The translations under genes and the position numbers were made by a program. The notes below the pieces were generated by a model. The model saw only the letters and a program-made list of their open reading frames with translations. It was not told the DNA's origin and did not search any database. This document shows, piece after piece, positions 47,090-64,000 of a stretch of 64,000 nucleotides of DNA. The stretch is from Sneathiella sedimenti (GTDB taxonomy: Bacteria; Pseudomonadota; Alphaproteobacteria; Sneathiellales; Sneathiellaceae). The first letter of the stretch is position 1; every line of letters starts with the position of its first letter. The DNA is taken from the NCBI RefSeq assembly GCF_017313765.1, contig NZ_JAFLNC010000004.1, positions 248,001 through 312,000 of the forward strand, given 5' to 3'.

Positions 47090-47495
47090 GCGCGCGGACA
47101 TTATCACCGAGGCACGCCGCTGGATCGGCACGCCCTGGCGGCATCAGGGACGCAGCCGGGCGGGCGTCGATTGCGTCGGGCTGGTCGTTCTGGTGGCCCG
47201 CACTCTCGGTCTCAAGCCTGAGGATGTCACCGGATATGCGCGGCGGCAAGATGGCCGGGCACTTCTGCGTCATCTTCATAAACAACTTGAGTTACAACCA
47301 GCAACTGACTGGAAATATGGAAATATCGGTGTTTTCAAGGAAAGCGCCTTTCCCATCCATGTCGGGTTTTTAAGCGAACGCGATGGAGTGCCGACGGTCA
47401 TCCATGCCCATGCCCGGAGAAGGCAGGTGATCGAAGAGGCGCTTGATCCATACGGTACTCCGTTTGCCGTTTTCTCATTTCCGGAGGTTCTCTAA
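47082..47495 (+). CDS. NlpC/P60 cell-wall peptidase of the tail (GTA gp14-like)
   Basis: The 137-residue papain-like peptidase has catalytic Cys31 in AGVDCVGLV and catalytic His93 in FPIHVGFLSE. TEARRWIGTPWRHQGRSR before the Cys is typical of phage and GTA tail peptidases. It should cut peptidoglycan stems during DNA entry. I start at the ATG at 47082, overlapping the hub gene; a longer open frame upstream is antisense-like read of the hub gene. The TAA overlaps the ATG of the next gene by one base. Confidence 0.9.
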   Translation: MVERADIITEARRWIGTPWRHQGRSRAGVDCVGLVVLVARTLGLKPEDVTGYARRQDGRALLRHLHKQLELQPATDWKYGNIGVFKESAFPIHVGFLSERDGVPTVIHAHARRRQVIEEALDPYGTPFAVFSFPEVL

Positions 47496-50400
47496 TGGCG
47501 ACTTTGGCACTTGGGCTCGCGGGCGCCGGTATCGGCGCGGTAACCGGTGTCGGCGCCGGGGCTGGTTGGCTTCTCGGCACGACGTTGGGCCGCGTTCTCT
47601 TCCCCGAAGAAGGCAATTCATCCTCCGCGACGCGGCTCACCGATCTCAATGTCACGGGCGCAAGCTATGGCGCGGCGATCCCGCGCTTGTACGGCACCAT
47701 GCGCCTTGCCGGGAATATCATCTGGGCGGGCGAGCTTCGCAGCGAGGCAGTGACCAGCAGCAGCGGCGGCGGCAAGGGCGGCGCGGGCGGCTCATCCCAG
47801 GTAACCGGTTACAATTATTTCACCAGTTTCGCTGTCGCTATCTGCGAGGGGGAGGTATCGAACCTCCTTAAAATCTGGGCCGATGGGGAGGTCATCTATG
47901 ACGCCGGCGCGGAGGGGGACGTGATCGCCTCCGATGTGCGGTTCCGCTTCTACCCCGGCGATGAGGAACAGCTCCCCGACAGCATTATCGAGGCGGCGGA
48001 AGGGGAGGACAACACGCCTGCCTATCGCGGGCTCTGTTATCTCGTGTTCGACGACCTGCCGCTGCGCGCCTTTGGCAACCGCATCCCGAATATAGAGGTG
48101 CTGGTCACCACTGATGGTGTCGGCGCCTATCCGCTCACCGACAGCGAGATTGCCTCCGTCAATGCGGGCAGCTTTGCCTATGATGCGGAGCGGGGCCTTG
48201 TCTACAGCTATGAGGTGGTGGGCGGTGTCGATACGGTCCGCAAGATCGATGCCCTGACGCTGGAGGAACTCGCGACAGCCGAGGTGGAGACGGAATTTCC
48301 GCGCCTGCCCGACGCGGCGATCGGGTTTTCGCGGGATCGCAAGGGCAATTTCTGGATCGGCACGGGCGCAGCCCTGCTCGCCGGGCGGCAAATCCACCAT
48401 GTGAACGGCGAGACAATGCAACTCAACGACAGCGCCGATCTGCCGAGTGGCGTGGGTGCAATTACCCATTCGACTGATATCATCAATCCGCTTACCGGCG
48501 CGCAGTTCCAGGTCGCCGGATCGCAGCAGAATTATCAGGTGGTGATCTTCGATGAGGCGCTGGAGGTGTTGGACAGCATCACGACAAGCTCGCGCGTCTC
48601 TACCGGTGCGGTGACAGACGCAGACGAAGTCGCCTGGGTCGGCCTGTCCGGCTGGGCGACCGGCCCGGTGTTCAGCGACCTTGAGATCGTCCGCGTGTCG
48701 GTTTTTGGCAGTCCGGGTGTTTCGGGCACGGACTATTCCGTCGAGAGTGAGATTTTTACCATCGCCACCGCCGATCTCACGCCGCTGGGCGGGACGGGGA
48801 GCGAAACCAACAATATCACCAGGCTGGTCGCCTATTTGCCCGCGAGCGATGAGCTTCTGTTCCAGAATGATTATCGTATTTTAAAATGGTCGACGCGTAC
48901 CCATGAAATCACCGCAAGTCGCGATGTGAGCACGTTGAGCGGAAGTCTCAGCCTTGTCCATACGCATAACGGCAGCGAGATCGTCTTTATCAGCGCCGGG
49001 CGCTATGCGGTTTATTTGAGCGCCGAGACGCTGGCGGAGAGGGAGCGGGTCGATCTTTATGACTTCGACGGGGTTAGTGCGTCCGTGAACGGCGTCTATG
49101 ACGCGGCGACGGACAGCATGTTTGTCTTTAACAGTTCCTTCGGGGTGAAACGGCTTTTCTTGCGCCGCGCGAGCGGGGCGGGGGCCGAGCTTGCCGATAT
49201 CGTCAGTGACCTCTGTGCGCGTGGGCGTCTGACGGATGAGGATGTCGATGTCTCCGCCCTTGCGGGCAGCATTCCGGGCTATCTGGTGAGCCGCCCGATG
49301 TCGATTGCCGAGGCGCTGACCCCGCTCAGCGATTATGCCTTTTTCGATGCGGTGGAGAGCGGCGATGTGCTGAAGTTCCTCCCTCGCAACCAGGCCGACA
49401 GCGGCGTGACCATCACGGATGAGGAGATGATCGCGCCGCCCGCCTTGCGCCGGTTGCAGGAAAGCGAACTGCCGGAGAGGATATCGCTCTCCTATCTCGC
49501 GTCCGATGCGGGCTACCAGATCGGTACGCAGATGGAGAAGCGGGCCTTCCGCCCCGTCGCCACCATGTTCGGGCGCAACCAGATTGCGCGGGATCTGCCG
49601 ATGGCGCTTACCGCTGATCTCGCGCGGCAGGCGGCGGCGAAAACGCTCTATTCCGCCTGGGCTGAGCGACAGACGGTGAGCGCGTCGCTGCCGCTGAAAT
49701 ACCTCGCCCTCGATCCAGCAGATGTGCTGAGCCTTGAGATAAACGGTGCGGCCAGCAGCGCCCGGCTGATGCAGTCCCATTTCGGCGCGGATATGACCAT
49801 CGAGACCGAGGCCGTGACCCTTTCGCCCTTGAGCTATGACGCGGGCGAAACCGGGGATGCGGGCTCGGGCTATGAGCAGGTGCTGATCCGCAAGGGAAGC
49901 TATGCGGAGCTGTTCCTCCTCGATCTGCCGTTGCTCAGGGATCAGGATGCGACGGCGGGGAACGGCAGCCGTTTCTATTTCGCCATGGATGGTTATCAGT
50001 CCGGCTGGACCGGTGGCACCCTCTATTCCGCCTTCGATGAGGACAGCTATCAGGTAGAAGGGGCAATCAGCAACGAAGTTGTCTGGGGTGTGACGTTGAA
50101 CGCGCTTGAGGGTACGGAAACGCCGTTCCAGACGGATGAAAGCTCGACCCTCGATATCCGTTTTGTGAGCGGCGGGGACGAACTCGAAAGCATTAACACA
50201 TCCGCATTGTTGAACGGCGGTAATGCCCTGCTGGTGGGCGCAGAGATTATCCAGTTCGCCGATGTGTCGGAGAATGCGGATGGCAGCTACCGTCTCTCGA
50301 CCCTGCTCCGGGGACGTCGCGGCACGGAAGGGGCGACCGGCTCGCACAGGGTTGGGGAGCGGGCGATCCTGCTTCGCTCTGGCGATATCGGGGGCGGCTT

Positions 50401-50836
50401 TAGTGCCCTCAACACCCTCGACCTGCCGCGCCGCTGGAAAGCGGTGGGGGCGGGCCGCCTGATTGAGGAGGTTTCGCCCACCATCAAGGCCCTGACCGGC
50501 AATGACCTCAAACCTTACGCACCGGTCCATATTACGGGCACGCGCGATGGCGGGGATCTCTCTCTCAGCTGGCAGCGGCGGACGCGGATCGGCGGCGGCA
50601 GTTTGAGCGGCGAAGTGCCGCTTTCCGAAGCGTCGGAGCGGTATGAGCTGGTCTTTACCCATAATGGGGAGAGTGTCTCCAAATATGTATCAGATGCCAC
50701 GGAATATACCTATGAGCTGGCCGATTTCAACGCGGATTTCGGTGTTTCCGAAGTCGCGGTGCCGGAGCTTTCGCTCACTCTCTATCAACTTTCTGAAACC
50801 ATAGGCCGGGGTTTTCCGGCAACGGAGATTATCTAG
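47495..50836 (+). CDS. Large tail tip / host-specificity protein (GTA gp15-like)
   Basis: The 1113-residue protein has an N-terminal tip region at about 1-205. A Gly-rich hydrophobic start is followed by VTGASYGAAIPRLYGTMRLAGNIIWAGEL and FAVAICEGEVSNLLKIWADGEVIYD, alike to GTA gp15. From about 560 a Phage-tail_3-like domain begins (LADIVSDLCARGRLTDEDVDVS, YAFFDAVESGDVLKFL), and it ends with a fibronectin-III-like module (SLSWQRRTRIGGG). Between about 210 and 560 there are repeated beta-strand units (AYDAERGLVYSYE, SRDRKGNFWIGT, YDAATDSMFVFNS) that look like a beta-propeller where GTA proteins carry a glycosidase-type barrel. Confidence 0.85.
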   Translation: MATLALGLAGAGIGAVTGVGAGAGWLLGTTLGRVLFPEEGNSSSATRLTDLNVTGASYGAAIPRLYGTMRLAGNIIWAGELRSEAVTSSSGGGKGGAGGSSQVTGYNYFTSFAVAICEGEVSNLLKIWADGEVIYDAGAEGDVIASDVRFRFYPGDEEQLPDSIIEAAEGEDNTPAYRGLCYLVFDDLPLRAFGNRIPNIEVLVTTDGVGAYPLTDSEIASVNAGSFAYDAERGLVYSYEVVGGVDTVRKIDALTLEELATAEVETEFPRLPDAAIGFSRDRKGNFWIGTGAALLAGRQIHHVNGETMQLNDSADLPSGVGAITHSTDIINPLTGAQFQVAGSQQNYQVVIFDEALEVLDSITTSSRVSTGAVTDADEVAWVGLSGWATGPVFSDLEIVRVSVFGSPGVSGTDYSVESEIFTIATADLTPLGGTGSETNNITRLVAYLPASDELLFQNDYRILKWSTRTHEITASRDVSTLSGSLSLVHTHNGSEIVFISAGRYAVYLSAETLAERERVDLYDFDGVSASVNGVYDAATDSMFVFNSSFGVKRLFLRRASGAGAELADIVSDLCARGRLTDEDVDVSALAGSIPGYLVSRPMSIAEALTPLSDYAFFDAVESGDVLKFLPRNQADSGVTITDEEMIAPPALRRLQESELPERISLSYLASDAGYQIGTQMEKRAFRPVATMFGRNQIARDLPMALTADLARQAAAKTLYSAWAERQTVSASLPLKYLALDPADVLSLEINGAASSARLMQSHFGADMTIETEAVTLSPLSYDAGETGDAGSGYEQVLIRKGSYAELFLLDLPLLRDQDATAGNGSRFYFAMDGYQSGWTGGTLYSAFDEDSYQVEGAISNEVVWGVTLNALEGTETPFQTDESSTLDIRFVSGGDELESINTSALLNGGNALLVGAEIIQFADVSENADGSYRLSTLLRGRRGTEGATGSHRVGERAILLRSGDIGGGFSALNTLDLPRRWKAVGAGRLIEEVSPTIKALTGNDLKPYAPVHITGTRDGGDLSLSWQRRTRIGGGSLSGEVPLSEASERYELVFTHNGESVSKYVSDATEYTYELADFNADFGVSEVAVPELSLTLYQLSETIGRGFPATEII

Positions 50837-50837
50837 C

Positions 50838-51656
50838 ATGCCAGAACTTGATTTACCGCAGATCGCCGAGAGCCAGGCGCTTGCCTATGTCACCTCCAAC
50901 GATGCGGACGCGAAGCTGGAATCCGCGCTCTGCGACGAGATTGCCAGTCATGACCCGACCGCTGGCGATGTGACGCTAACCGACGCCGAGTTTCGCGAGA
51001 CCTGGCATCATGTTATCGGCGGCAGCCCCTCCGGCGGCTTTAACTTCATCGTGCCGGAGATCAAGCGCCCCTTCATGGTCACCAACGGAAGCGGGGAGAC
51101 GGCAACGGTCAAGACCGCCTCCGGCGCGGCGGGGCAGGCGCTCGAGGGGGAAACCCGGCTCTTCTATTGCGACGGGACGGATGTCATCGGCCTGACGGAC
51201 AGCACCTCGGGCGGTGGGGGCGGCGGAACCCACGCAGGGGCGCTGGTCAAGATGAGTTCCAACCAGAGCATTGCCGACAGCACCAACACCACGCTCAACT
51301 GGGCGAGTGAAAGCTACGATACCGATAGCTATCACGACAACGCCACCAACAACAGCCGCCTGACCGTGCCGAGCGGGGTCTCCAAGGTGATCGTCAGCGG
51401 GCAGGTCCGCTGGGACAGCAATGGAAGCGGCACGCGGGAAATCCTGCTCGAGAAGAACGGGTCCAGCAGTTTTGATGGCCGCCCGTTCGAGCATATCGAC
51501 GCGCAGACGAACCGCACCATGCAGAGCTTTGTCTCGCCGGTGCTGGCCGTGACGCCGGGGGATTATTTCGAGTTGGTCGCCTGGCAGGACAGCGGCGCCA
51601 GCCGGGACATCGAAAGTCATGTCGCCACCTGGTTCAGCATTCAGGCCATCGAGTAA
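50838..51656 (+). CDS. Tail fibre / receptor-binding protein candidate
   Basis: The 272-residue protein has an N-terminal part (about 1-120) with no clear relative, a Gly-rich hinge (SGGGGGGTHAG near 125), and a C-terminal beta-sandwich at about 140-272. The last part (TVPSGVSKVIVSGQVRWDSNGSGTREILLEKNGS) resembles C1q/TNF-like jelly-roll tips found on phage fibres. It follows the tip protein by a single base and lies where adsorption proteins are normally found. Host target unknown. Confidence 0.65.
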   Translation: MPELDLPQIAESQALAYVTSNDADAKLESALCDEIASHDPTAGDVTLTDAEFRETWHHVIGGSPSGGFNFIVPEIKRPFMVTNGSGETATVKTASGAAGQALEGETRLFYCDGTDVIGLTDSTSGGGGGGTHAGALVKMSSNQSIADSTNTTLNWASESYDTDSYHDNATNNSRLTVPSGVSKVIVSGQVRWDSNGSGTREILLEKNGSSSFDGRPFEHIDAQTNRTMQSFVSPVLAVTPGDYFELVAWQDSGASRDIESHVATWFSIQAIE

Positions 51657-60094: not shown

Positions 60095-61033
60095 CTAGAC
60101 GACGACTTTTCCGTCGCGCTGGAAATGATCCATGGGGCCGTACAGCTTCACGATTTCCGCGTATTCCGCCGTATCGAAGAAGGCGCAGTTGCCCTCGGTG
60201 AAGGATTTCGCGACTTCCAGGGTGAAGCGCGCCGCAGCTTCCACATCGGTGAGGTGGGTCGCCCCGGTGGCGCAACCGGCAACCGGCACCTCGGTTGTGA
60301 TTGCGACGCCGACAACCGGGGCGGTCGTCGCGGTGCAGGGCTGCATGATGCTGTTGATATGATAGAGGCCGTTGCCGTAAGGGGTGATGTCCTGCTGGGA
60401 GAGGGCGAACACCTTCGGGTGCTGGCCCGTCACCTGCGCCATCAGCTCGAGCAGGTCGTCGCTTGTCTTGAGCAGATATCCTTCCTTGACCGTCGGCGAA
60501 ATGGCGAAGCCCCGATGGTTGAGGATCTTGTTGCCCTTGGTCGTATCGACAGAGAGGATGGCGTCCATCTCCTTGGCCACTTCCCACTGGTTCTTGAGTT
60601 CCATCGGGATAGGCGAATCCATGAACGGCACCGGCTTGTGCGGCCGGGTCGGCGCATTGGGGCAGATATGGGTGGAGAGGATCACGTCCCCTTCCAGCTG
60701 ATCGCCGAGGGAGGCCATCCGTCCGAGCTTCGCCGCCGCGGCCAGCACAGCAAGAGCGCCGTCGCCATCGGAGACAAAGCCGACCCGCTCCGGCCGGGCG
60801 CCGATGCCGCCGAGCCGGCCGATGATGCCAAGTGTCGGCGCATCCCCGCCATTGATTCGGCCGTTTTTGCCGGGCACGGTGATCTTGATGAAATCCGTCG
60901 CCCCCTTGTCGGAGGTAACGTGATTGACCTCGCACTCGGCCGTGCCGGTCTCCTTCAGATAAGCCTGCACATGCGCGCCGCTGGCCGACGGTGCATCCAG
61001 AATTTCATAGATATCAATGATTTGTTTCAGCAT
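60095..61033 (-). CDS. DUF1177 family protein
   Basis: The 312-residue protein matches DUF1177: LKQIIDIYEILDAPSASGAHVQAYL, TDFIKITVPGKNGRINGGDAPTLGIIGRLGGIGARPE, GDVILSTHICPNAPTRPHKPVPFMDSPIPM and VAGCATGATHLTDVEAAARFTLEVA. The family has no assigned function but is often beside AroM and peptide or oligopeptide transport genes. HICPNAPTRPH and the conserved Asp/His pairs suggest a metal-dependent hydrolase, possibly an amidohydrolase. It follows the regulator gene on the same strand by 100 bp, so cotranscription is likely. Confidence 0.88.
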   Translation of the reverse strand: MLKQIIDIYEILDAPSASGAHVQAYLKETGTAECEVNHVTSDKGATDFIKITVPGKNGRINGGDAPTLGIIGRLGGIGARPERVGFVSDGDGALAVLAAAAKLGRMASLGDQLEGDVILSTHICPNAPTRPHKPVPFMDSPIPMELKNQWEVAKEMDAILSVDTTKGNKILNHRGFAISPTVKEGYLLKTSDDLLELMAQVTGQHPKVFALSQQDITPYGNGLYHINSIMQPCTATTAPVVGVAITTEVPVAGCATGATHLTDVEAAARFTLEVAKSFTEGNCAFFDTAEYAEIVKLYGPMDHFQRDGKVVV

Positions 61034-61133
61034 GTCTCATATTCTTTTTGTTTCCAAATCCCAGCGTAAAATCTACATCGGGAGCGGAAAGGTTGAATAT
61101 GAGGGTGACTACGTATCTTAACCGCGCTTGTGA

Positions 61134-62045
61134 TTACAGCATCAAGACCTGGCGAATTAGGCCGGAAACCGTCGAGACGCCGAGCTTTTTCATCACCCGG
61201 CTGCGGTGGATCTCGACTGTGCGGTGACTGATGTCGAGCAGGCGGGCAATCTCCTTGTTTGACAGACCCGCCACGACATTTTCCGCCACTTCCAGCTCCC
61301 GCCGGGTGAGTTGCGGATAAGCCTGCGCCATGCGCATGGCGAGGTTCTTCTTCTCCCGCGGGCGGGTGTCTGTCATCGAATTGAGCTGCATCCGCAGGGA
61401 GCTTGCCAGAATGTTGCGGGCCGTTGCCACCGGCTTGCCGCTCTGCGCACTGACCTTCCGCGCCATCTCCCCCGAATAGGCCATGCTGTACATGACGATG
61501 AAGTCGCAGTTCTTGAGGCTGCGGGTGATGTCGTCGATATTCCCGCTCGGCCCGGGCAGGGTATAGCTGACCGACTGGCGGATCGCCGCGCCATGGGTGA
61601 AGATATTCTCGGTGCCCTGCAGATCGACGGAATAGATGATGCCGACCCGGCAGCCCACCATGGTAAGGGACTGGACCCAGGATTCAACAATGGTCTGGCC
61701 GTTGAGAAGCGGCGTCTTGGTGACGATTTCCTGCTGCAGCCCGGTACTGACAACGACGATAAAGTCGTAATTCTCCTGGTCCAGCCGCGCGCAAAGGGCC
61801 GCCATGCGTCTCTCCACGATATCTCCCGAGACGATCTTGTACTCCCCATTGGCGAAACGGGTATGAAGGGCGATCTGGTTGGGCGCTTTGGGGAGTTTGT
61901 CGAACTCGGTCGGGTCGATGCCGTCAAGGGCGCCGAATTCCTCGACGATGATCTCGGTGTCGAGCTGCCGGATGAGGTGCGGCACAATATCAGGGCGCGG
62001 CGCCTGACCTATGGTGACAAAGGCAATTCTCGGCAGTCGAGCCAT
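61134..62045 (-). CDS. AroM-domain / LuxR-type HTH fusion regulator
   Basis: The 303-residue protein joins an N-terminal AroM-like domain (about 5-222: [45 protein letters not shown]) to a C-terminal LuxR/GerE HTH (about 244-301: [44 protein letters not shown]). I know of no characterised regulator with this architecture. Relative to the neighbouring AroM protein it has Ser100 and Ser187 at two positions where that protein has Cys104 and Cys191, with identical 87-residue spacing. This suggests a catalytically silent ligand-sensing domain. It is divergent from AroM and upstream of DUF1177, so likely regulates both. Confidence 0.9.
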
Positions 62046-62114
62046 CTTTCCCCCTTCTTGGAAAAAAGCAGTTATAGACGCTCTGGCTCGCGGATATCAA
62101 GGCGTCCGTATTGT

Positions 62115-62128
62115 GTAAGGGCTTTTAC
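62115..62128 (+). promoter_or_regulatory. Candidate operator between the AroM-LuxR regulator and AroM genes
   Basis: GTAAGGGCTTTTAC is a 14-bp partly symmetric site (GTAA-NN-GC-NN-TTAC) within the 161-bp divergent intergenic region. LuxR-type proteins usually bind dyads of this scale, but the site rests on position and symmetry only. Confidence 0.3.
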
Positions 62129-62206
62129 GTATTTCACGAAACCGTAACAACCGTCAAACTTCTCACACTGGATAAAGTAATTTTCGGAAAATTCGGGGGC
62201 AAGTCA

Positions 62207-62902
62207 ATGAGCGTGGAAAAGATACGGGGCAAACGGCTGGCGCTGGTGACCATCGGGCAGGCACCACGGGTCGATATCACACCGGACATGATGCGCGGAT
62301 TCGAAGAGGACTATGACATCACCGAGTTCGGCGCGCTGGACGGCATGACGAAAGAGGAAGTTGCCGCGCTCGCCCCGGCGGACGGGGAAGATCGCCTGGT
62401 CAGCCGTCTTGTCGACGGAGAGGAAGTGATCTGCTCCCACGCGGCGATCGAGGCGCGGCTCGGTGAGTTGTTCGCCCGCATCGACGCGGACAAGTTCGAC
62501 GCCATCCTGATGCTCTGTTCGGGCAAGCTGACCGAGGCAAGTCACACGCTGCCCGTCTTTTCCCCCTATGAAACTCTGAATGCCGAGATTGCGGAATGCC
62601 GCGCCCGGGGCGAGGTGATCGGCATGATCTCCCCCCTGGCTGAACAGATTGACAAGAACAAGGCGCTGTTCGACAACCCGTCGGGCGCCCGCTTTTCCTA
62701 TGTCACGCCCTATGGTGACGGCAGTTTCGAGGCGGTGGGCGAAGAACTTAAAGACACCGATGTCATCATCATGAACTGCATGGGCTTTGACAGCGAGATG
62801 GCGGCGAAGGTGGAAAAATCCGCCACCGTGCCGACGCTGACAGTGCGGCAGATATTCATGAAACATATCGAGCGGGCGCTTTCAAAGGATGCGGCGGCCT
62901 GA
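62207..62902 (+). CDS. AroM-family protein
   Basis: The 231-residue protein matches Aro[55 protein letters not shown] with Cys104, and VIIMNCMGFDSEMAAKV with Cys191. Two Cys in equivalent loops of two half-domains resemble the Asp/Glu racemase superfamily, so an amino-acid racemase or related activity is possible; the name AroM derives from shikimate gene neighbourhood and does not prove a role there. I start at the ATG at 62207, preceded by GGGGGCAAG. It is followed 71 bp later by the transporter binding protein. Confidence 0.88.
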   Translation: MSVEKIRGKRLALVTIGQAPRVDITPDMMRGFEEDYDITEFGALDGMTKEEVAALAPADGEDRLVSRLVDGEEVICSHAAIEARLGELFARIDADKFDAILMLCSGKLTEASHTLPVFSPYETLNAEIAECRARGEVIGMISPLAEQIDKNKALFDNPSGARFSYVTPYGDGSFEAVGEELKDTDVIIMNCMGFDSEMAAKVEKSATVPTLTVRQIFMKHIERALSKDAAA

Positions 62903-62973
62903 TCGCCGGCGCCCGCGTGATCCATAATAATAACGGGAATAGTGAGCAAGAATTCAACCTGGAGGAAGAAAGT

Positions 62974-64000
62974 ATGAAAGATATGAGCAGACGTAGTTTT
63001 GGCAGGCTGGTAAAAGCCTGCGCCGTCGCGGGACTGGCCGTTGCCAGCCTTGGCGCGACGATGGAGCCGGCCACCGCCTTCGAGCGCGTAGACGGAGGCA
63101 AGGTTCTCGTCATTGCCGGACGCCAGCCGGTATCCACCTTGGACCCGAGCGTGAAATACAATGCCTCCATCCGGTCCCTGCAGCAGGCGCTCTATGATGC
63201 GCTGGTGAAATATGACGGTAACCCGCCGCAGGTAAAGCCGTGGCTCGCCGAAAGCTGGGAGCAGAGTGACGATGGCAAGACCTGGATCTTCAAGCTGGTC
63301 AAAGGCGCCAAGTTCCACAGCGGAAACCCGGTCAATGCCGAGGCAATCAAATATTCCTTCACGCGGACGCTGGAACTGAATAAGGGCCCGTCCTGGATGC
63401 TGTCCGACTTTCTCAAGCCCGAAGGCATTGTCGTTGTTGACGACCACACGGTCCAGTTCAATCTTGAAAAGCCCTACGCGGCGTTTCTCTCCTTCCTGCC
63501 GTGGTGGTACATCATGGACCCGGCGGTTGTCGGCGCCCATGTCGAAGGCGATGACTATGGCCAGAAATGGCTTACCGAGAATGAAGCCGGCAGCGGCCCG
63601 TACAAGCTGAAACGCTTCGATCAGGGAACGCTTTATGAAGTCGAGCGGGTCAAGGATTACTGGAAAGGCGACGGCGGCTCCAATATTGAGGGCATCGTCT
63701 ACAAGCTGATCCGGGAAACCTCGGCACAGCGCGCGGCGCTGATGCGCGGCGAGGCGGATATCGTACTTGACCTCTCCCCGGACGAGTTCGACCAGGTGGC
63801 AAAAGCCAAGGGGATCAAGACCTCGACCGAACCGGCGCTGACCGCGTTTGGCCTGAAGTTCAACACCAAGGGCAAATACATGTCCGACAAGAACCTGCGC
63901 AAGGCCGTGGCCCATGCCTTCGACTATGACTCACTGGTCGCCATCTTCAACGGCAAGGCGGTTCTGCAGACGAGCCCCTTCACCGACGATATCAAGGGCA
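62974..64000 (+). CDS. Family 5 peptide/oligopeptide ABC transporter substrate-binding protein (cut by window end)
   Basis: The reading frame from ATG 62974 (SD GGAGGA 7 nt upstream) runs to the window edge, covering about 342 residues. A twin-arginine signal (SRRSFGRLVK, then a hydrophobic stretch) directs Tat export. The mature part has SBP_bac_5 motifs: PVSTLDPSVKYNASIRSLQQALYDALVKYD, WEQSDDGKTWIFKLVKGAKFHSG, EAGSGPYKLKRF and VAHAFDYDSLV. The family binds peptides, nickel or related substrates. The neighbouring AroM and DUF1177 genes suggest an unusual amino-acid or peptide ligand. Permease and ATPase genes probably follow outside the window. Confidence 0.92.
   Translation, partial: MKDMSRRSFGRLVKACAVAGLAVASLGATMEPATAFERVDGGKVLVIAGRQPVSTLDPSVKYNASIRSLQQALYDALVKYDGNPPQVKPWLAESWEQSDDGKTWIFKLVKGAKFHSGNPVNAEAIKYSFTRTLELNKGPSWMLSDFLKPEGIVVVDDHTVQFNLEKPYAAFLSFLPWWYIMDPAVVGAHVEGDDYGQKWLTENEAGSGPYKLKRFDQGTLYEVERVKDYWKGDGGSNIEGIVYKLIRETSAQRAALMRGEADIVLDLSPDEFDQVAKAKGIKTSTEPALTAFGLKFNTKGKYMSDKNLRKAVAHAFDYDSLVAIFNGKAVLQTSPFTDDIKG

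Follow-up and report, generated by a model that had tools for sequence, protein, structure and literature searches.

What does a protein do that joins an AroM-like domain to a LuxR-type helix-turn-helix (HTH) and is encoded back to back with a stand-alone AroM? The question is raised by a locus close to the end of the 64,000-nucleotide stretch of Sneathiella sedimenti DNA analysed here (hereafter the window). The first-pass annotation, made from the letters alone, described an AroM-like domain joined to a LuxR HTH and divergent from an AroM gene, and Pfam matches together with the gene coordinates confirm that description. The features of the locus are as follows.

60095–61033, minus strand: DUF1177 protein, 312 aa, co-directional with the regulator and 100 bp after it (PF06675, E 5.9e-133)
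61134–62045, minus strand: AroM–LuxR fusion regulator (type 1; P0001), 303 aa, with Pfam AroM and GerE domains; member of a single-clade fusion family
61155–61313, minus strand: GerE/LuxR-type HTH of the regulator, residues 245–297 (Pfam; Foldseek matches to StyR, FixJ and VraR)
61401–62027, minus strand: AroM domain of the regulator, predicted Asp/Glu-racemase fold, residues 7–215 (Pfam; structure model; PDB matches)
61485–61487, minus strand: Ser187 codon of the regulator, Cys in nearly all stand-alone AroMs (alignments)
61746–61748, minus strand: Ser100 codon of the regulator, Cys in most stand-alone AroMs (alignments)
62207–62902, plus strand: stand-alone AroM (P0002), 231 aa, with the intact pair C104/C191 (PF07302, E 2.8e-53, 181.1 bits; model pLDDT 93.2)
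62516–62518, plus strand: Cys104 codon of the stand-alone AroM, aligning with the first Cys of an annotated Asp/Glu racemase
62777–62779, plus strand: Cys191 codon of the stand-alone AroM, aligning with the second Cys of the same racemase
62974–63999, plus strand: family-5 solute-binding protein of a peptide-type ABC transporter, continuing past the window end (SBP_bac_5, E 4.8e-67)

The start codons of the two AroM-type genes are separated by 161 bases (62046–62206).

A racemase-like domain joined to a LuxR-type HTH

Residues 7–215 of the regulator match the AroM family (PF07302) with an E value of 1.6e-36 (126.3 bits against a cut-off of 23.8), and residues 245–297 match GerE with an E value of 1.8e-18 (66.3 bits against a cut-off of 23.5). 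No phosphoreceiver domain was found in a Pfam search at E values up to 1, in which residues 7–215 matched AroM only. A second fusion of this genome likewise scores above the cut-offs of both profiles, PF07302 and PF00196, and so do 10 of 10 further fusions that were scanned. Against the NCBIfam equivalog NF007788 the regulator reaches 111 bits, under the cut-off of 198, and the stand-alone AroM, at 151 bits, is also under it.

AlphaFold models of the regulator (pLDDT 83.8, pTM 0.69; residues 141–156 of low confidence, with pLDDT under 50) and of the stand-alone AroM (pLDDT 93.2, pTM 0.89) give both proteins a predicted Asp/Glu-racemase fold. The first VIA-align match of each is hydantoin racemase 2eq5_A (Z 15.7, rmsd 3.3 and 190 aligned residues for the regulator; Z 15.3, rmsd 3.1 and 191 aligned for the AroM), and Foldseek also matches the regulator model to StyR, FixJ and VraR. 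A search of the AroM sequence against solved structures returned 0 matches at E values up to 10. Had the modelled N-terminal region been unlike AroM, the idea of a reused enzyme fold would have fallen; the prediction is AroM/racemase-like.

Compared with the AroM family (PF07302; NF007788), the regulator is homologous over nearly the full profile and has the GQxPR, GxLD, TG and Q motifs in common, but it differs in having neither cysteine and in carrying a C-terminal HTH. The predicted fold of both proteins is that of the Asp/Glu racemase superfamily (hydantoin/allantoin racemase, maleate isomerase, AMDase), whose cysteine pair is kept by the stand-alone AroM and is missing from the regulator. 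With LuxR/NarL (GerE) regulators such as StyR and FixJ it shares the C-terminal GerE HTH, and its predicted site is dyad-symmetric; in contrast to these, the input domain of the fusion is AroM, and no receiver or autoinducer-binding domain was matched in Pfam.

Loss of both cysteines across the family

In two alignments, C104 and C191 of the stand-alone AroM correspond to S100 and S187 of the regulator, each pair 87 residues apart, exactly as had been read by eye. In a profile comparison (hhalign probability 77, E 2.1e-5), C104 and C191 also line up with the cysteine pair of a protein annotated as a racemase; both members of this catalytic pair of the superfamily are missing from the regulator.

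AroM proteins came from three sources: whole genomes searched with the profile, named genomes scanned with a pattern for one N-terminal motif (of 143 confirmed stretches, the best 80 were used), and annotated plasmids. This collection comprises 133 distinct AroM domains, 28 in fusions and 105 called stand-alone, with the fragmentary match L017 left out. The number of residues following the AroM domain is bimodal, either 0–19 or 77–103, the exception being the split-domain row of L051.

Position 100 is occupied in the 28 distinct fusions by Ser (25), Met (2) or Thr (1), and position 187 by Ser (26) or Ala (2). In the 105 sequences called stand-alone, the first position is Cys in 97 and Ser in 8, the second is Cys in 102, Ser in 1 and Tyr in 1, with one gap, and both cysteines are present in 95. 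The sole Ser/Ser row among them, L039, is a fusion truncated by a contig end; apart from it none of the 105 is without both cysteines, L072 being incomplete there. Eleven distinct fusions found later are all Met/Ser, and 30 further distinct stand-alone AroMs are all Cys/Cys, so that Cys stands at either position in 0 of 39 fusions (28 plus 11). Loss of both thiols is the rule of the fusion clade. Together with the predicted fold, this count bears out the first-pass view that the fold was kept and both thiols were lost. Ser at both positions, the pattern that would have spoken against that view had it been usual among AroMs, is not the usual state, since 95 of the 105 keep both cysteines.

In seven stand-alone AroMs of family f199 (L124–L127 and L129–L131), from the same phylum, the first position is Ser while the second is still Cys; sites with one cysteine are likewise described for AMDase and EcL-DER in the available text on those enzymes.

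We also compared conserved columns between the 28 fusions and 102 stand-alone sequences (L039, L051 and L072 left out). Among the conserved columns listed, the two cysteine columns alone fall to 0% kept in fusions; they are kept in 93% and 99% of the 102 stand-alone sequences and in 100% of 18 sister stand-alone AroMs. G13, P16, R17, G38, L40, D41, T101, G102 and G135 are kept in 28 of 28 fusions, and the motifs GQxPR, GxLD, TG and Q143 are mostly retained. Because most conserved family motifs persist, the AroM domain most likely still binds a pathway small molecule, without turning it over.

A Pro-Tyr pair (SPY), positions 168–169 of P0002, is kept in 99% and 79% of stand-alone AroMs and is perhaps part of the active site. 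The corresponding residues (P164/Y165 in P0001 numbering) are kept in 32% and 14% of fusions; their loss in most fusions suggests that the pocket may have changed and that the ligand may differ.

A fusion that is still catalytic, through Ser/Ser or some other base, and that regulates by turnover in the manner of a trigger enzyme would account for the many conserved motifs that fusions retain. Active superfamily members with one cysteine replaced, Thr83/Cys197 in EcL-DER and Gly74/Cys188 in AMDase, are described in the available text of PMC12661438 and PMC4996985, and on that text only a double loss argues for a dead site. The fusions show a double loss: in 28 of 28 and 11 of 11 cases, each of the two positions is occupied by Ser, Thr, Met or Ala. 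OpaE, a related enzyme, retains 0.3% activity or less as the C199S or the C90S/C199S mutant (PMC12661438, available text). We consider a catalytic fusion very unlikely.

A single clade of fusions

A careful tree was built from 51 domains, comprising 23 of the 28 fusions and 28 of the 105 stand-alone sequences, hand-picked to thin near-copies. A branch supported at 100/98 and recovered in 100% of 200 bootstrap trees separates the 23 fusions from all the stand-alone sequences. A quick tree of 130 rows (L051, L071 and L072 left out) agrees on a single fusion clade, and the truncated L039 falls inside it. Under midpoint rooting, the nearest relatives of the fusions are two-cysteine AroMs from similar clusters, placed by forks with support of 80/67 and 94/86. 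The careful tree puts the two Sneathiella fusions in different subclades.

These trees divide the earlier proposal of a sensor derived from the enzyme. A derivation from two-cysteine AroMs agrees with the single clade and its nearest relatives, but the regulator is not a copy of the AroM beside it: in the careful tree it groups with fusions of other families, and a local duplication is not borne out by either tree.

A search for the AroM plus GerE architecture, which the first-pass annotation had proposed, showed that fusions recur beyond this genome, as one clade and in several alphaproteobacterial families. In a class sample of 385 genomes, fusions occur in 9 of the 15 that carry AroM, 4 of these 9 being Sneathiella; in a phylum sample of 398 genomes they occur in 1 of 14 that carry AroM, namely the present genome. 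On these counts the fusion family looks alphaproteobacterial; two metagenome fusions have no label finer than Pseudomonadota or Proteobacteria. Databases label the fusion genes just 'AroM family protein' or 'hypothetical protein', which might suggest a chance fusion or an annotation error in one strain; the single clade, its spread over several alphaproteobacterial families and the conserved gene order described below refute that reading.

Gene neighbourhoods of the fusions

The S. sedimenti genome (3.58 Mb) has three AroM genes, one stand-alone and two AroM–LuxR fusions. Beyond the window, in locus L004, the solute-binding protein gene is followed by four genes named, by likeness, DppB, C, D and F, and then by the second fusion:

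L004:10559–11473, minus strand: second AroM–LuxR fusion of this genome, 6.5 kb from the first, pointing towards the end of the transporter operon (convergent) and transcribed divergently from DUF917

The second fusion faces DUF917 (now S-Me-THD-like in Pfam) and then a hydantoinase-A-like gene. The transporter operon is flanked in this way by two fusions, each divergent from one catabolic operon.

The constant partner of the fusions is this DUF917–hydantoinase-A pair. Of 22 different fusion loci, 20 show it, and the remaining two (L033 and L034) lie on short contigs whose sequence stops short of it. DUF917 is also found in all 11 later fusion loci, which are short stretches. A stand-alone AroM is frequent near fusions and not constant (the L028 and L030 stretches show none), and DUF1177 occurs, among the 22 loci, only in Sneathiella type-1 loci and L140, and is rejected as a constant partner. 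Of the co-occurrence with AroM and DUF1177 that the first-pass annotation had put forward for checking, the AroM part holds as a tendency and the DUF1177 part does not extend beyond those few loci.

In G011, G012 and G015, three Sneathiella relatives, the fusion is the single AroM match and there is no stand-alone AroM. The ligand of a fusion need not, on this evidence, be the substrate of AroM, and the suggestion of an operon controlled by the substrate or product of its own enzyme fails as a general rule.

The same three genomes bear on another reading, in which no metabolite is involved and DNA binding is set by contact: the regulator's AroM domain would dock onto the stand-alone AroM or onto some other enzyme of the pathway. 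Many fusion loci do hold a stand-alone AroM, and OpaE is a homodimer (PMC12661438, available text), so AroM-type domains may pair. Against docking stand the three genomes with a fusion and no other AroM match, and the retention in fusions of enzyme motifs beyond what a docking surface alone would seem to need. We regard it as unlikely.

What the cluster degrades can be approached through its other members. DUF917 matches 2o3i among solved structures and, weakly, a halohydrin dehalogenase; the hydantoinase-A-like protein matches subunits of N-methylhydantoinase, 5-oxoprolinase and acetone/acetophenone carboxylase. Neither set of matches names a substrate. The available text of PMC11055893 describes AroM as racemase-like and of no tested function, enriched together with DUF917, whose function is likewise given as untested, and with peptide transporters near cyclodipeptide oxidases; 'LuxR' is absent from the main text of that paper in its available form.

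The DUF1177 protein (60095–61033) gave four weak rows in a sequence search against solved structures, the best with an E value of 0.094; by eye its start resembles a metallo-aminopeptidase, and the Nicalin rows are only weak.

A shared dyad at fusion and putative target promoters

When the intergenic regions are aligned, a single strongly conserved block stands out in 6 of 6 type-1 and 8 of 8 type-2 Sneathiella regions; it resolved on comparison with other fusion loci to an 18-bp dyad. The pattern nTA[ACG]G-N8-C[CGT]TAn, picked after viewing these fusion regions, has its sole match in the 64-kb window at the following position.

62115–62132, no strand: predicted operator GTAAGGGCTTTTACGTAT, an 18-bp dyad upstream of both genes, 74 bp from the start codon of AroM and 69 bp from that of the regulator (footprint, pattern matches)

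The dyad lies upstream of the fusion in 25 of 28 regions, one site each, some of these regions being the same genome under two locus names; L140 has no site, and L040 and L139 have near-variants only. Reduced to non-redundant upstream regions, 14 of 16 carry it, against a shuffle mean of 0.22 and a maximum of 3 in 1000 shuffles. A pattern-free dyad scan ranks TACG-N8-CGTA first, in 13 of 16 regions, against a maximum of 11 in 60 shuffled sets. With the pattern fixed beforehand and then tried on new fusions, all 11 (10 distinct regions) carry it, these fusions all belonging to family f66, close kin of the pattern-defining L141 and L142; no new fusion was found in the other three groups searched for test loci.

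As a check outside the promoters from which the pattern was chosen, the dyad recurs at a second promoter, that of an AroM–solute-binding protein, solute-binding protein or OPT–racemase operon, in 12 of 15 loci; it is absent there from L140, L141 and L142, and L030 is without such an operon in its stretch. Over 401 kb scanned, 37 of 40 matches fall in the 250 bp preceding a cluster gene, one of these 37 being inside the transporter operon; about half of the matches are promoters that defined the pattern. For a narrower form, TAAG-N6-TACGTATTT, the S. sedimenti genome contains two exact matches, at the two fusion promoters, and two one-mismatch matches, a number equal to that of the reversed control pattern. 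The second fusion's own copy of the dyad faces the DUF917–hydantoinase genes, whose promoter region is L004:11474–11647.

The dyad and the fusion tend to occur together. The dyad lies upstream of AroM in 15 of 16 cases in fusion loci (six of the 16 promoters helped to define the pattern and one belongs to the cut fusion L039; outside these, 8 of 9), against 0 of 112 AroM loci without a fusion in view, where named contigs were viewed within the fetched stretch only. The count leaves out the fragmentary L017, L063 with its too short upstream region, and 15 duplicate upstream regions. The dyad is absent from 6 of 6 AroM promoters in family f66 genomes whose fusion lies elsewhere in the genome.

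Could the dyad be bound by another regulator, or be a shared promoter element, with the fusion acting elsewhere? The two Sneathiella fusions belong to different subclades, yet their sites are alike, and elements other than the sigma-70 consensus are compatible with our promoter scan. The difference between 15 of 16 and 0 of 112 AroM promoters argues for the fusion, as do the symmetry and length of the dyad, which fit an HTH dimer and the typical size of LuxR-type sites. L140, the one printed fusion with a TVEKH HTH, is also the one without a site. Binding by something other than the fusion seems to us improbable on these grounds. The dyad is not favoured as a sigma-70 promoter: the scan of 60900–63050 gave one promoter-like site, which is not the dyad, with a shuffle mean of 1.0.

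The HTH of the L140 fusion reads TVEKH where 10 other printed fusions read TVEIH or TVDIH, and in the region without a dyad (L140:5760–6030) four AGTGCGA words lie between DUF1177 and the fusion. The L140 fusion has perhaps acquired an altered site specificity.

The sites lie mostly about 50–80 bp before the start codons of DUF917 and AroM, as placed automatically, a position that suggests activation.

A decommissioned enzyme as the proposed sensor

We propose, with a probability of about 0.77, that the fusions are one-component regulators with a decommissioned racemase-like sensor, putatively controlling a peptide- or hydantoin-type catabolic cluster. The reading builds on the computed architecture, predicted fold, cysteine loss, single clade, shared site and co-occurrence of site and fusion. 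The gene at 61134–62045 would encode a one-component transcription regulator whose N-terminal domain is a former AroM enzyme, both catalytic cysteines having been lost at or near its fusion to the LuxR-type HTH; the fusion event would have occurred once, probably in an alphaproteobacterial ancestor. Binding of the small molecule would alter the seating of the presumed HTH dimer on the 18-bp dyad. The control points would be the dyad in the intergenic DNA that the regulator shares with its divergent gene and the further copy at the AroM/transporter promoter. The likely targets are AroM, the solute-binding protein, the Dpp-type transporter, DUF917 and the hydantoinase-A-like protein, in Sneathiella also DUF1177, and the position of the sites suggests that they would be activated.

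A more specific version is that the fusion is a frozen enzyme reporting its substrate, with the pathway molecule sitting in an AroM-like pocket and not turned over. The two Sneathiella fusions, of different subclades and each with an operator copy, would then respond to distinct forms of that molecule, such as two isomers or successive intermediates, setting the import/AroM and DUF917–hydantoinase operons separately. We offer this as a speculative extension that we consider unlikely.

Relation to known regulators

Enzyme-derived one-component regulators, in which an enzyme fold serves as effector sensor beside an HTH, include ROK repressors, MocR-type GntR regulators and UTRA domains; these use other folds and other HTH types than the AroM–LuxR fusion. 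Our fold searches also brought up the sensor domain of another regulator, the N-terminal domain of the NtrC-type activator PrpR (2pju), with a match much weaker than those of the racemases (TM by query length 0.25–0.35).

The first-pass annotation knew of no described regulator of this type, and our literature searches turned up no racemase-fold/LuxR regulator (in the broad AroM searches, among the matches listed). The five matches for AroM with LuxR contained none on such a regulator, judged by title and abstract start, four papers from a further search dealt with other regulators, and the one match to a DUF1177 search concerned, by its title, DUF1996. The fusions appear to be a new regulator family of a known general type, enzyme-derived sensor plus HTH, not found in print in our searches (for the broad AroM ones, among the matches listed).

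DUF1177 is unnamed in Pfam, and AroM and DUF917 are described as untested in the available text of PMC11055893. A regulator family that shares the AroM fold and has a readable predicted operator offers a direct handle on all three: the inducer of these promoters should be a pathway substrate or intermediate, and a reporter screen could point to the chemistry. The family would also be a clean case of an enzyme becoming a sensor, in which both catalytic cysteines disappear as a DNA-binding domain is acquired.

Elsewhere in the window, large open reading frames at 47495–51656 resemble, by eye, phage-tail or gene-transfer-agent host-specificity proteins.
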